Shown in pieces: positions 3,788-24,122 of a stretch of 24,222 nucleotides of DNA. The notes below the pieces were generated by a model that saw only the letters and a list, made by a program, of their open reading frames with translations, was not told the origin of the DNA and ran no database searches. Numbering within the stretch: position 1 is the first letter of the stretch; every line of letters starts with the position of its first letter. A program made the position numbers and the translations under genes. The stretch is from a virus: the IMG/VR virus record IMGVR_UViG_3300042539_000112, positions 1-24,222 of that record; one strand, given 5' to 3'.

Positions 3788-3801
3788 ATACAAGTATGTT
3801 T
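3777..3801 (+). promoter_or_regulatory. Hairpin covering terL stop and HNH start codon
   Basis: AAACATACT (3777-3785) and AGTATGTTT (3793-3801) are perfect reverse complements, separated by AAATACA. The terL stop TAA (3785-3787) is at the left edge of the loop, and the HNH ATG (3796-3798) is inside the right arm. No Shine-Dalgarno sequence precedes that ATG, and no T-run follows, so this is not an intrinsic terminator. In the mRNA it would hide the HNH start unless a ribosome finishing terL opens it. Confidence 0.6.
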
Positions 3802-4248
3802 ACGAAAAACAAAAAACCACGCAAGAAGTCAAAAACTACAAGCGCATATGATCGCGTGATGAAACGCATAGAGATACCAGAAGATAAAAGTAAATGCTGG
3901 TTATGGACTGGACCAGTGAATAATGCAGGTTATGGTATGATCCGTGGCGACAATGGAGTACCTAAGATGACAACAGTTCATAGAGTCGTTGGTATACATA
4001 AAGGTCTAGATAGTGATGGCGAGATACAACATACATGCCTCACAAAACATTGTGCGAATCCTGATCATCTAGTAGAAGGTACTGGCATGACTAGGCATAA
4101 GCGCATAGTAGAGAAATATGGTAGAAACTTTCAAAAAGCAAAGAATCCATATAAGACATGTAAGCATTGCAAAGGCACAGATCATGTGACATGGTTCAGT
4201 CGCAAGCACGATGAATGCTACACATATAATCCTAAAAAGAAAGCATAA
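3796..4248 (+). CDS. HNH endonuclease, free-standing homing type
   Basis: The 150-residue protein has the signature of phage HNH nucleases of the 'CWLWTG...GYG' group. 'CWLWTGPVNNAGYGMI' spans residues 34-49, 'VHRVV' 61-65, and the ββα-metal core 'HTCLTKHCANPDHLVEGT' 79-96, with H79 and H91 as likely catalytic/metal residues. A second cysteine cluster (C122-x2-C125 ... H139-x-C141) suggests an extra zinc ribbon, perhaps for DNA binding. Such enzymes nick or cut a target and spread by homing; some HNH proteins next to terminases also assist packaging. It sits between terL and the portal, only eight bp after terL. It lacks a visible Shine-Dalgarno, and its start is in a hairpin, so expression probably depends on terL translation. 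An in-frame ATG at 3859 would leave the core intact but also lacks a clear site. Confidence 0.9.
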   Translation: MFTKNKKPRKKSKTTSAYDRVMKRIEIPEDKSKCWLWTGPVNNAGYGMIRGDNGVPKMTTVHRVVGIHKGLDSDGEIQHTCLTKHCANPDHLVEGTGMTRHKRIVEKYGRNFQKAKNPYKTCKHCKGTDHVTWFSRKHDECYTYNPKKKA

Positions 4249-9117: not shown

Positions 9118-9144
9118 AACTTAAGGAGACAATAAAATGGCATA
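9118..9144 (+). promoter_or_regulatory. Strong translation leader of the tail tube gene (copy B)
   Basis: AACTTAAGGAGA, then CAA, then TAAAATGGCATA: nearly the same leader as before the capsid gene, including the first codons (both proteins begin Met-Ala-Tyr). This gives the two most abundant virion proteins the same strong initiation signal. Confidence 0.7.
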
Positions 9145-9697: not shown

Positions 9698-9704
9698 TGA
9701 CCAA

Positions 9705-9737
9705 AGAAAGAGGGCAGAGCGATCTGCTCTCTTTTTC
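9705..9737 (+). terminator. Intrinsic terminator after the tail tube gene
   Basis: AAAGAGGGCAGA (9707-9718) pairs with TCTGCTCTCTTT (9723-9734) over 12 bp with one G-U pair. The loop is GCGA, a stable GNRA tetraloop, and the 3' arm runs into TTTTTC. It starts eight bases after the tail tube stop. This should end or attenuate transcription, so that head and tube genes are made in excess over the tape measure, tip and fibres. Confidence 0.88.
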
Positions 9738-9752
9738 TATATGGATGAACAA

Positions 9753-9986: not shown

Positions 9987-10331
9987 GTGAATATCAAAGA
10001 TTACGCAAGCAAACCAGAATTAGTAGAAGTCATACTCGACGGCAAAGAACTTGTCGAGCGTTATGGTGAACCTATCACATTCTATACATACAACATCGTG
10101 CGCATGTCAACATATTTTGACTTCTTCAATGCACGAAGCAACAACGAATTTAGCAACCTTGATAAGATGATGAAAGCCATGATCTTAGATAAGGATGGCA
10201 AGCAAGTACTTGCAGATGATGAGGATCTACCCATCGATATCGCTGCCGCGGCGATCAACAAGATTGGAGAAATCTTGGGAAAACCACAGAGCAAGGCATC
10301 GACCCAAATAGTTGGGGAAGCGCAAAAATGA
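9987..10331 (+). CDS. Tail assembly chaperone gpG-like
   Basis: The gene starts with GTG 9987, placed six bases after AAAGGAGA (9973-9980). The 114-residue product begins 'MNIKDYASKPELVEVILDGKELVERYGEPI', then is helical and acidic. It sits exactly where lambda-like phages encode gpG: after the tail tube, before the tape measure. A canonical -1 slippery heptamer (GGGAAAA, 10277-10283) lies near the 3' end in the correct phase, as in lambda (GGGAAAG). gpG and the frameshift product gpGT coat the tape measure and recruit tube subunits. In-frame translation ends 'GKPQSKASTQIVGEAQK'. The stop overlaps an ATG of the -1 frame (ATGA, 10328-10331). Confidence 0.8.
   Translation: MNIKDYASKPELVEVILDGKELVERYGEPITFYTYNIVRMSTYFDFFNARSNNEFSNLDKMMKAMILDKDGKQVLADDEDLPIDIAAAAINKIGEILGKPQSKASTQIVGEAQK
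10277..10283 (+). other. Programmed -1 ribosomal frameshift heptamer (gpG to gpGT)
   Basis: GGGAAAA is read in the gpG frame as ..G GGA AAA.., the X XXY YYZ form, and is one base different from lambda's G GGA AAG. A slip back by one base leads into 34 codons beginning TTEQGIDPNSWG and continuing 'MITIGRMAEKYGMLP', which read as a plausible T domain. I did not find an obvious strong stimulatory stem just downstream by eye. Confidence 0.8.
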
Positions 10332-10387
10332 TCACGATAGGTCGTATGGCTGAGAAGTATGGCATGCTACCACATACGACTTCATGA
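10283..10387 (+). CDS. gpT-like extension, first part (reached by -1 frameshift)
   Basis: In the -1 frame after the slippery heptamer, 34 codons follow, ending in TGA at 10385-10387. The last block 'IGRMAEKYGMLP' looks like the start of a conserved T domain; from memory, similar phage proteins continue with a helix containing 'ATTYD.M..DV'. Here the frame instead ends four codons later ('HTTS', stop), while the 'ATTYDFMITDV' continuation is present in the third frame from 10366. The T domain is therefore split. An ATG at 10328 in this frame overlaps the gpG stop, giving a possible separate 19-residue start. Confidence 0.6.
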   Translation, partial: TTEQGIDPNSWGSAKMITIGRMAEKYGMLPHTTS

Positions 10388-10527
10388 TCACAGATGTCCT
10401 TGCTGCCTACGATACTTATCAATCAGCAAAAGTAAAAGCAAAAGGTACTGCACCAGATCCTAATGCTTATAAAATTAGCCAAGATCAATTGCAGGCTATA
10501 TTGAACAAAGGTAAAAATAAACAATGA
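10384..10527 (+). CDS. gpT-like extension, second part (different frame)
   Basis: A third frame is open from 10354 to TGA 10525-10527 and encodes 'ATTYDFMITDV', then 'LAAYDTYQ', a Lys/Pro/Asp linker and 'ISQDQLQAILNKGKNKQ'. This reads as the C-terminal part of a tail chaperone T domain. The first ATG (10384) overlaps the stop of the preceding frame as ATGA, so reinitiation could make a 47-residue protein; there is no Shine-Dalgarno. Its own stop overlaps the next gene's ATG (ATGA, 10524-10527), which suggests this frame is still translated. Either the T domain has become two pieces, or a small deletion or sequence error has broken it. Confidence 0.55.
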   Translation: MITDVLAAYDTYQSAKVKAKGTAPDPNAYKISQDQLQAILNKGKNKQ

Positions 10528-10850
10528 GTAGCAACTGCGTGAATCGCCTTAATAAGGTATTAAAGACACTTGATGAGAAGAATATCAGCAAAGTTGCCTT
10601 TGATGCCTTTAAAGGTAATACTCCTATAGGTGATCCTAACCGTTGGAAGTCACGCAAAGCACCTAAGAATTATAAACCTGGTAACGCAAGACGCAAGACT
10701 GTATTGCGTGGTAACGAAGTGCAAGCAAATTACCCATATGCACAACGATTAGAAGAGGGTTGGTCAACACAAGCACCAAAAGGTATGACTGAACCTACTA
10801 TCAAAGAAGTTCGTGACTATGTGTACAATACATTAGGAATTAGAATATAA
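10524..10850 (+). CDS. HK97 gp10-like tail-completion protein, putative
   Basis: This is a 108-residue basic protein starting in an ATGA overlap with the T frame. The C-terminal block 'NYPYAQRLEEGWSTQAPKGMTEPTI' matches the recurrent pattern of HK97 gp10-like proteins ('..YA..vE.G...qaP.gm..pa'), which act at the head-tail joint or tail end. The N-terminal part ('VNRLNKVLKTLDEKNISKVAFDAF') is helical, and the middle is Lys/Arg-rich. The unusual point is position: gp10-like genes normally lie before the tail tube gene, whereas this one lies between the gpT region and the tape measure. The family call is moderate. Confidence 0.6.
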   Translation: MSSNCVNRLNKVLKTLDEKNISKVAFDAFKGNTPIGDPNRWKSRKAPKNYKPGNARRKTVLRGNEVQANYPYAQRLEEGWSTQAPKGMTEPTIKEVRDYVYNTLGIRI

Positions 10851-13078
10851 TGGCTACCATAGACAATTATAAAATAAAAGTAGAAGTTGATGGTCAGCAA
10901 CAAGTAGAACAACTTACTAGTCGTTTAGATACTTTACAAACTACTTTGAATAGAACTGCGGCTGCAGGTGTAGCGGCATTCACAGCGTTAGCCACTAGTG
11001 CGATACGCATGGCTGATAGTCTTGTTGATCTTGCTGATGCTACAGGTATAAGCGTCAGTCAATTATATCAATTAAGTGCCGCATTAGAAGCAAGTGGTGG
11101 CCAATTCGACGATAGCGGCAGAATGCTCATGGCATTCAGCAGAAGTTTGGGAGATGTCGAAAAAGGTAGCGAACAAACTATCGATGCTTTAACTAAATTA
11201 GGTCTAAGCCGTGGTGAATTAGAAAATCTTACCGACGAGCAATTATTCAAGCGCGTAGTTGATGGTTTAGCAGGCATGAAAGATGGCTTTGCTAAGACTG
11301 ATATCGCTATGCAGATATTTGGTAAATCAGCAGCCGGCATTGACTTTAAAAAATTAGCAGACGGTCTTAATCAAGCAGTAGATCCAAATGTAGAGCGCAA
11401 TCTAAGATTAGCGGCTGATGCTGTTGGTCAGATGGAAAGTGCATTTAGAAATCTACAATTGGCTGCATTAGAAGCGATAGCACCAATATTAGAAGAGTTA
11501 GCAAAATTTGAATTTAGTGCTGAAGATGCTAGAAAAGCAATGCAAGTATTAGGTGCATTAGTTGCAGGAGCATTTGCCGCAAGTACAGTAATTGCTATCA
11601 CAAAAACCGTGCAGGCTATAAGAACATTAGCATTAGCCATAAAAGCCGCCGCTGTAGCACAAACATTATTGACTGGATTGATACCTGTAGTTGGTGCCGC
11701 GACTGTCATTGCCGCTATAGGAGGCGCAACAGCAGCCTATCTAGCATTAGGCAAAGCGATGGAAGGTGCAGTCGATGCACAGGATAAACTAGATGGCTCT
11801 GCAACCGGTGCACCTGCTACATCTGCTACTGGATCAAACAAAGCACAAAGAGAAGTAGGTAAAACACCTGCAGAGAAAGCATTACTTGCCGCGCAAGCAA
11901 CAACAGAAGAAATGCGCAAGCAGAATGCTGCCGCATTAGAATATGAGCGTACCATTAATGGCACTATCGGCATGAGTCAAGAACTCGCTGACATCAAAAA
12001 GGTAGATGCTCAACTAGAACAAGATAGAGCCAAAAATACTGCGTCATATGAAAAACAAATAGCCGCGCTAAAAGCAGATACTAGCGGTAAAAATCAAGCG
12101 CAAATAGTAGAATTAGAAAAACAACAACAACTTGCAGACGAACAATTAGTCTCAATGGCTGAATTGAAAAAAATAGCCATTGAAAGAACTTTGGCTGAAA
12201 GACAATCAGCAGTTGAGATGCAAAAACAGTTGACTTTGATACAACAGCAAACTCAACAAAGTATAGCAAGCGCAGAAGCAGAAAACATGCGCAAAGTCAT
12301 CGCTGGCGAGATGACGCAACAAGAAGCCAATAATCTAAATGCTCTCAATAGAATTAGAGAAGAAGGCTTGAGCAGACAAAAACAATTAGAAGAACAGATA
12401 GCAGGCGAAAAAGATACTATCAGGAAAAAAGAATTACAAAATCAATTAGATGCCGCAAAACAGGCTACAGATTTTGCAATCAATGAAAAACGCCGCGAGA
12501 TTGAAGAAAAAGCCGCGCTTGAAGAAAGTTATAGTGCAGGCGTAGTCAAAGGATTAGAACAGATCGCTGAACAATTTAAACCTATCAATATGGCACAGAA
12601 AGCCGTACAAGATACATGGGGTAGCATCAATAATGCTATCGATACATTCGTCAATACAGGTAAATTTAAGTTTAGCGATTTCGCTAGAAGCATTGTTGCT
12701 GATCTTGCCAAGATGATAGCAAAAGCATTGATCTTCCGTTCTATATCAGGATTCATGGGTAGCCTAGGCATACCATTACCAGGATTCGCTGAAGGTGGTA
12801 GTCCACCAGTAGGTCAACCTAGCATCGTTGGTGAGAAAGGCCCTGAGTTGTTTATACCTAAGCAAGCAGGCACAGTCATACCTAACAATAAATTAGGTGA
12901 CATGATGTCTTCACAACCAATGCAACAACAACCTGTAGTAAACAACTATAACTACAATAATAACATCAATGCTGTAGATGCTAAATCTGTAGCGACATTG
13001 TTCTATGAGAATAGAAAAGCATTGTTCGGTGCTACAAATCAGGCAAGAAAAGAATTGCCATATGGCGCGGCAGCATAA
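10850..13078 (+). CDS. Tape measure protein
   Basis: The 742-residue protein starts in a TAATG overlap. The N-terminal ~230 residues hold the conserved region with 'LADATGISVSQLYQLSAALE' and 'IAMQIFGKSAAGIDFKKLADGL', typical of phage tape measures. Hydrophobic Ala/Val/Ile-rich segments at about 232-252 and 256-300 may form the membrane-inserting part used at infection. A long Gln/Glu/Lys/Ala-rich coiled coil covers about 325-560. A C-terminal tail has the hallmark 'GGSPPVGQPSIVGEKGPELF' (about 646-665). The protein spans the tail lumen and sets tail length. At roughly 0.15 nm per residue this predicts a tail near 110 nm, an estimate that ignores N- or C-terminal processing. No lysozyme or peptidase insert is visible. 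Confidence 0.93.
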   Translation: MATIDNYKIKVEVDGQQQVEQLTSRLDTLQTTLNRTAAAGVAAFTALATSAIRMADSLVDLADATGISVSQLYQLSAALEASGGQFDDSGRMLMAFSRSLGDVEKGSEQTIDALTKLGLSRGELENLTDEQLFKRVVDGLAGMKDGFAKTDIAMQIFGKSAAGIDFKKLADGLNQAVDPNVERNLRLAADAVGQMESAFRNLQLAALEAIAPILEELAKFEFSAEDARKAMQVLGALVAGAFAASTVIAITKTVQAIRTLALAIKAAAVAQTLLTGLIPVVGAATVIAAIGGATAAYLALGKAMEGAVDAQDKLDGSATGAPATSATGSNKAQREVGKTPAEKALLAAQATTEEMRKQNAAALEYERTINGTIGMSQELADIKKVDAQLEQDRAKNTASYEKQIAALKADTSGKNQAQIVELEKQQQLADEQLVSMAELKKIAIERTLAERQSAVEMQKQLTLIQQQTQQSIASAEAENMRKVIAGEMTQQEANNLNALNRIREEGLSRQKQLEEQIAGEKDTIRKKELQNQLDAAKQATDFAINEKRREIEEKAALEESYSAGVVKGLEQIAEQFKPINMAQKAVQDTWGSINNAIDTFVNTGKFKFSDFARSIVADLAKMIAKALIFRSISGFMGSLGIPLPGFAEGGSPPVGQPSIVGEKGPELFIPKQAGTVIPNNKLGDMMSSQPMQQQPVVNNYNYNNNINAVDAKSVATLFYENRKALFGATNQARKELPYGAAA

Positions 13079-21035: not shown

Positions 21036-24122
<3,087 letters not shown>

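Follow-up and report, generated by a model that had tools for sequence, protein, structure and literature searches.

A lambda-type chaperone locus raises the question of why its T domain is written in two reading frames and whether the phage still makes it as one protein. The locus lies in the window analyzed here, a 24,222-nt stretch of viral DNA from IMG/VR. T is tied to tail assembly in well studied phages: lambda depends critically on the G:GT ratio, and its T domain binds the tail tube protein (PMC5009743), and disruption of gpT in TP901-1 leads to capsids without tails (PMC4493119). The original prediction had offered four explanations: a short deletion, synthesis of T as two polypeptides, a second programmed slip, and a sequence error. 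As described below, the cause of the third frame is ordinary, namely a frame-breaking deletion of 25 nt, real or assembled, in a -1 frameshift chaperone locus that is otherwise standard.

The G gene and the slippery heptamer

The first features needed are the following.

9987-10331, plus strand: G gene, predicted tail assembly chaperone gpG; intact open reading frame of 114 aa with a GTG start
10277-10283, plus strand: slippery heptamer G_GGA_AAA for the -1 shift into T, in phase with the G frame

G is preceded by a strong Shine-Dalgarno sequence, AAAGGAG (-8.7 kcal/mol), and gpG is 62-98% identical to its 17 aligned relatives. Pfam and the named PHROG families contained no detectable sequence match to G, and a sequence search of the PDB was likewise negative. 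The AlphaFold2 model of G (pLDDT 77) found an annotated tail assembly chaperone, A0A6J5LPC3, as its top Foldseek match (E 6e-12, 35% identity), and on this model G is predicted to have the tail-assembly-chaperone fold. Cultured phages in the phage collection gave no match to the DNA region, G, or T, plasmids gave none to the G of one relative, and none of the host genomes searched for T carries it.

Relatives were found among uncultured phages. A search with the G protein yielded 51 IMG/VR contigs, 50 of which were readable from the G start, and a broader search based on an alignment of T yielded 80 contigs, the earlier 51 included; many of the 80 are near-duplicates and represent fewer than 80 independent observations, none of them broken. 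The heptamer sat at the identical position in 50 of 50 readable relatives, as GGGAAAA in 32 and as GGGAAAG in 18. In the wider set, 79 of 80 contigs carried one of these two forms, and the remaining contig begins 3' of the heptamer site. In the frame of G, the heptamer at 10277-10283 is divided as G_GGA_AAA, as the original prediction had proposed, and a conserved, in-phase candidate slippery heptamer is thus located near the 3' end of G. Because the heptamer is fixed at one position, annotation of the family as putative -1 frameshift genes is well supported. Ordinary translation would yield G, and a single -1 slip at G_GGA_AAA would yield GT. The G/GT pair adds a new and unannotated member to the lambda-type -1 frameshift tail-assembly chaperones, and its family comprises at least 80 uncultured-phage contigs that Pfam and PHROG models miss.

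Just 5' of the heptamer, GGAG (10266-10269) was present in nearly all relatives with GGGAAAA, and most of those with GGGAAAG have GGTGA there. This motif could be a dnaX-like stimulator for the weaker heptamer, or it could reflect mere shared descent. An Rfam scan at gathering thresholds returned no RNA element.

A T domain interrupted by the loss of 25 nt

Downstream of the heptamer, the parts of T in the window are arranged as follows.

10283-10387, plus strand: first part of T in the -1 frame, to GMLPH, then out-of-frame TTS and a stop; 85-98% identity to the opening stretch of T in the relatives
10363-10375, plus strand: deletion junction CATGCTACCACAT, the only copy left of a repeat of 13 nt; compared with all relatives, 25 nt are absent
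10363-10527, plus strand: remainder of T (HATTYDFMITD...KNKQ, then a stop) in the third frame; 59-86% identity to the C-terminal part of T in the relatives

From 10283, the -1 frame translates to TTEQGIDPNSWGSAKMITIGRMAEKYGMLPHTTS and is closed after 34 codons by TGA at 10385-10387; all 80 relatives have an open T domain in this frame. The third frame opens at 10354, directly behind TGA at 10351-10353, and translates to EVWHATTYDFMITDVLAAYDTYQ...KNKQ, with its stop at 10525-10527. The portion HATTYDFMITDVLAAYDTYQ...KNKQ occupies this remaining frame, and its end overlaps the ATG at 10524 of the next gene. Translations and relatives thus bore out the view that the -1 frame stops at 10385 and continues in another frame. 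The third frame had been placed from 10366; it does exist but opens at 10354, 10366 being the start of the ATT homology (10363 with the H). In each of seven relatives, the two pieces align with the respective halves of a single continuous protein, showing that the two-frame arrangement is not due to chance. The window copy is a broken member of the lambda-type gpG/gpGT frameshift chaperones.

In 50 of 50 readable relatives, T is a single open -1 frame of about 79-89 residues that runs through ...GMLPHQVEEHATTYDFMITD..., and it is uninterrupted (...AEKYGMLPHQVEEHATTYDFMITD...) in every one of the 80 contigs having the T domain. The ATT codon lies 379 nt from the start of G in the window, as against 404 nt in the relatives (407 nt in a single relative whose G is one codon longer). 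The window lacks 25 nt, or eight codons and a further base, precisely where GMLPH meets ATTYD. Extra residues between GMLP and ATTYD, which the original prediction had suggested looking for in homologues, were indeed present, the relatives being 25 nt longer there. In the intact relatives L010 and L015, CATGCTTCCACAT and CATGCTACTACAT lie exactly 25 nt apart, at both edges of the stretch that the window lacks. These imperfect 13-nt direct repeats reach an identity of 11/13 in intact relatives, and the window 13-mer matches each copy in L010 and L015 at 12/13. The likeness of the repeats arises because GMLPH and HATTY, in different frames, use nearly the same letters. The missing 25 nt, the repeats at their edges in relatives, and the absence of the loss from the relatives are direct observations. 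The 25 extra nt in the relatives and the 13-nt repeats at both ends lend strong support to the proposed deletion between two ATGCTACCA-like copies.

Compared with eight relatives, T was the only window gene found to be frame-broken. A second two-frame listing, at 9701-9745, turned out to be an indel in the non-coding leader of a small gene at 9741. As no other gene is frame-broken, the general sequence quality of the window is good. The third-frame part has the substitution pattern of a conserved ancestral coding sequence, a pattern that is silent on translation since the deletion.

Origin of the loss and fate of the third frame

We consider it somewhat probable (roughly 55%) that the 25-nt loss is present in the sequenced phage DNA and is a slippage-type deletion between short repeats. 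One 13-nt repeat unit together with the intervening bases, 25 nt in all, would have been lost between the copies in the manner of replication slippage. We infer a loss in the DNA molecule itself, its origin by slippage, and an abolished function. G output would be untouched by the lesion in T. A -1 slip would now give a truncated GT of 99 + 34 residues versus about 99 + 89. The truncated product retains only the first predicted T helix in a model of low confidence (pLDDT 65) that was used solely for approximate helix positions. As the second and later T helices would be lacking, a working gpGT is not expected from the window copy. One point against a real deletion is that gpGT is expected to be essential, and a phage in which the deletion is fixed should be defective.

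A join made during assembly on the 13-nt overlap would look like a real deletion in the sequence. The phage would then carry an intact T, and a gap closer or contig merger would have joined ends on the exact overlap, losing 25 nt; we regard this as a serious but less probable explanation. The window is a single linear 24.2-kb IMG/VR fragment, and its junction is a perfect 13-nt overlap; perfect short overlaps are what overlap-based gap closing joins on. All 80 other contigs are intact and none has the junction, and the failure to find a second contig with it also speaks against a real deletion. Two pattern scans of viral contigs detected no other carrier, although records near the window possibly lay outside these scans. 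The closest relatives are only about 88% identical to the window across 8.7 kb, and none of them thus comes from its own population. Against an artefact, the rest of the window is free of frame damage, and the 13-nt repeat is too short for collapse in ordinary de Bruijn assembly, which at a k of 21 or more cannot collapse such a repeat by itself.

The remaining readings retain a functional third frame. If T were made as two polypeptides, GT would end at 10385 and translation would restart at an ATG that overlaps the stop exactly (ATGA, 10384-10387), in the style of translational coupling.

10384-10386, plus strand: ATG that shares bases with the TGA closing the broken T frame; encodes the Met of the conserved (F/L)M motif

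This ATG encodes the Met that the DFMI/DLMI motif conserves in the same column in all relatives, and it is not preceded by a Shine-Dalgarno sequence (+0.4 kcal/mol versus -8.7 for G). A restart there would leave out HATTYDF, few ribosomes get to the stop at 10385, and a split T occurs in no relative (80 of 80 intact). Synthesis as two polypeptides is therefore very unlikely. Slightly less likely again is a viable lineage in which the truncated GT works in trans with a separately started C-terminal T peptide (10384 to the stop at 10525), initiated at the ATGA that the deletion made. The least likely reading is a second programmed shift, either -1 or a bypass, that reunites the frames within 10354-10387. 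Both frames contain a CAT codon, at 10373 and at 10363, 10 nt from each other, and a backward hop would give GMLPH-ATTYD, but this coincidence is a by-product of the repeat. Because the third frame opens only after TGA 10351-10353 and the -1 frame ends with TGA 10385-10387, any rescue must act between them. Enumeration of X_XXY_YYZ heptamers in the -1 frame revealed none between 10325 and 10385 and none in the usable 10354-10387, and relatives neither have nor need a second break or recoding site (80 of 80 intact). The only such heptamer farther upstream, C_CCA_AAT at 10303, was rejected as a second slip site; a shift there meets TAG immediately.

Thus, among the explanations originally offered, the short deletion gained strong support, and neither two polypeptides nor a second slip did. 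A sequence error, taken together with an assembly error, keeps a lesser but real probability. The ATGA at the start of the next gene had also been taken to argue that the third frame is translated. Such an overlap is present in 24 of 51 sequences, the window included; it, like the conserved residues of the third frame, says no more than that T ended in this frame ancestrally. Given its ordinary cause, what looks like a double change of frame should be entered neither as a second programmed shift nor as a split chaperone.

Genomic context and known systems

The genes downstream of T are listed here.

10524-10850, plus strand: next gene, Neck1/tail-completion family (phrog_169, E 4e-11); starts on the T stop (ATGA)
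10850-13078, plus strand: tape measure protein (phrog_24, E 4e-24)

G/GT accordingly precedes the tape measure gene closely, a single Neck1-like gene lying in between. Several relatives that align well on either side showed no DNA match to 10905-12390, the first two-thirds of the tape measure gene, which suggests replacement or fast divergence of this part. Upstream of G, a terminator-like hairpin with a T run (AGAGGGCAGAGCGATCTGCTCTCTTTTTCT) occupies 9704-9740, after the gene at 9137 and ahead of the small gene at 9741; hairpin and 5' flank are exactly conserved in five relatives. Elsewhere in the window, 21048-24122 encodes a predicted tail fibre-like protein of 1024 aa with collagen-like repeats at its start. 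A small gene at 3796-4248, between the terminase and a portal-like gene, matches the zinc loop of a His-Me finger homing endonuclease, but weakly and below the cutoff.

Among characterized systems, lambda gpG/gpGT (heptamer G_GGA_AAG) shares with this locus the place upstream of the tape measure gene, the type of in-phase heptamer near the 3' end of G and, in the intact relatives, a T domain in the -1 frame. Unlike in lambda, a Neck1-type gene separates T from the tape measure gene, and T of the window is broken by the 25-nt deletion. A0A6J5LPC3, an uncultured Caudovirales phage tail assembly chaperone in BFVD that is known from a metagenomic record only, has the same length (114 aa) and a similar predicted fold. 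The HK97 tail assembly chaperone (PDB 2ob9) was the second-ranked PDB match to the model, a weak fold resemblance (TM about 0.45, E 0.6) that alone is not significant. Translational bypass in phage T4 gene 60 would offer the model for a jump from one frame to a disjoint one; T4 bypass skips an insert, whereas here bases are missing and the relatives have no coding gap.
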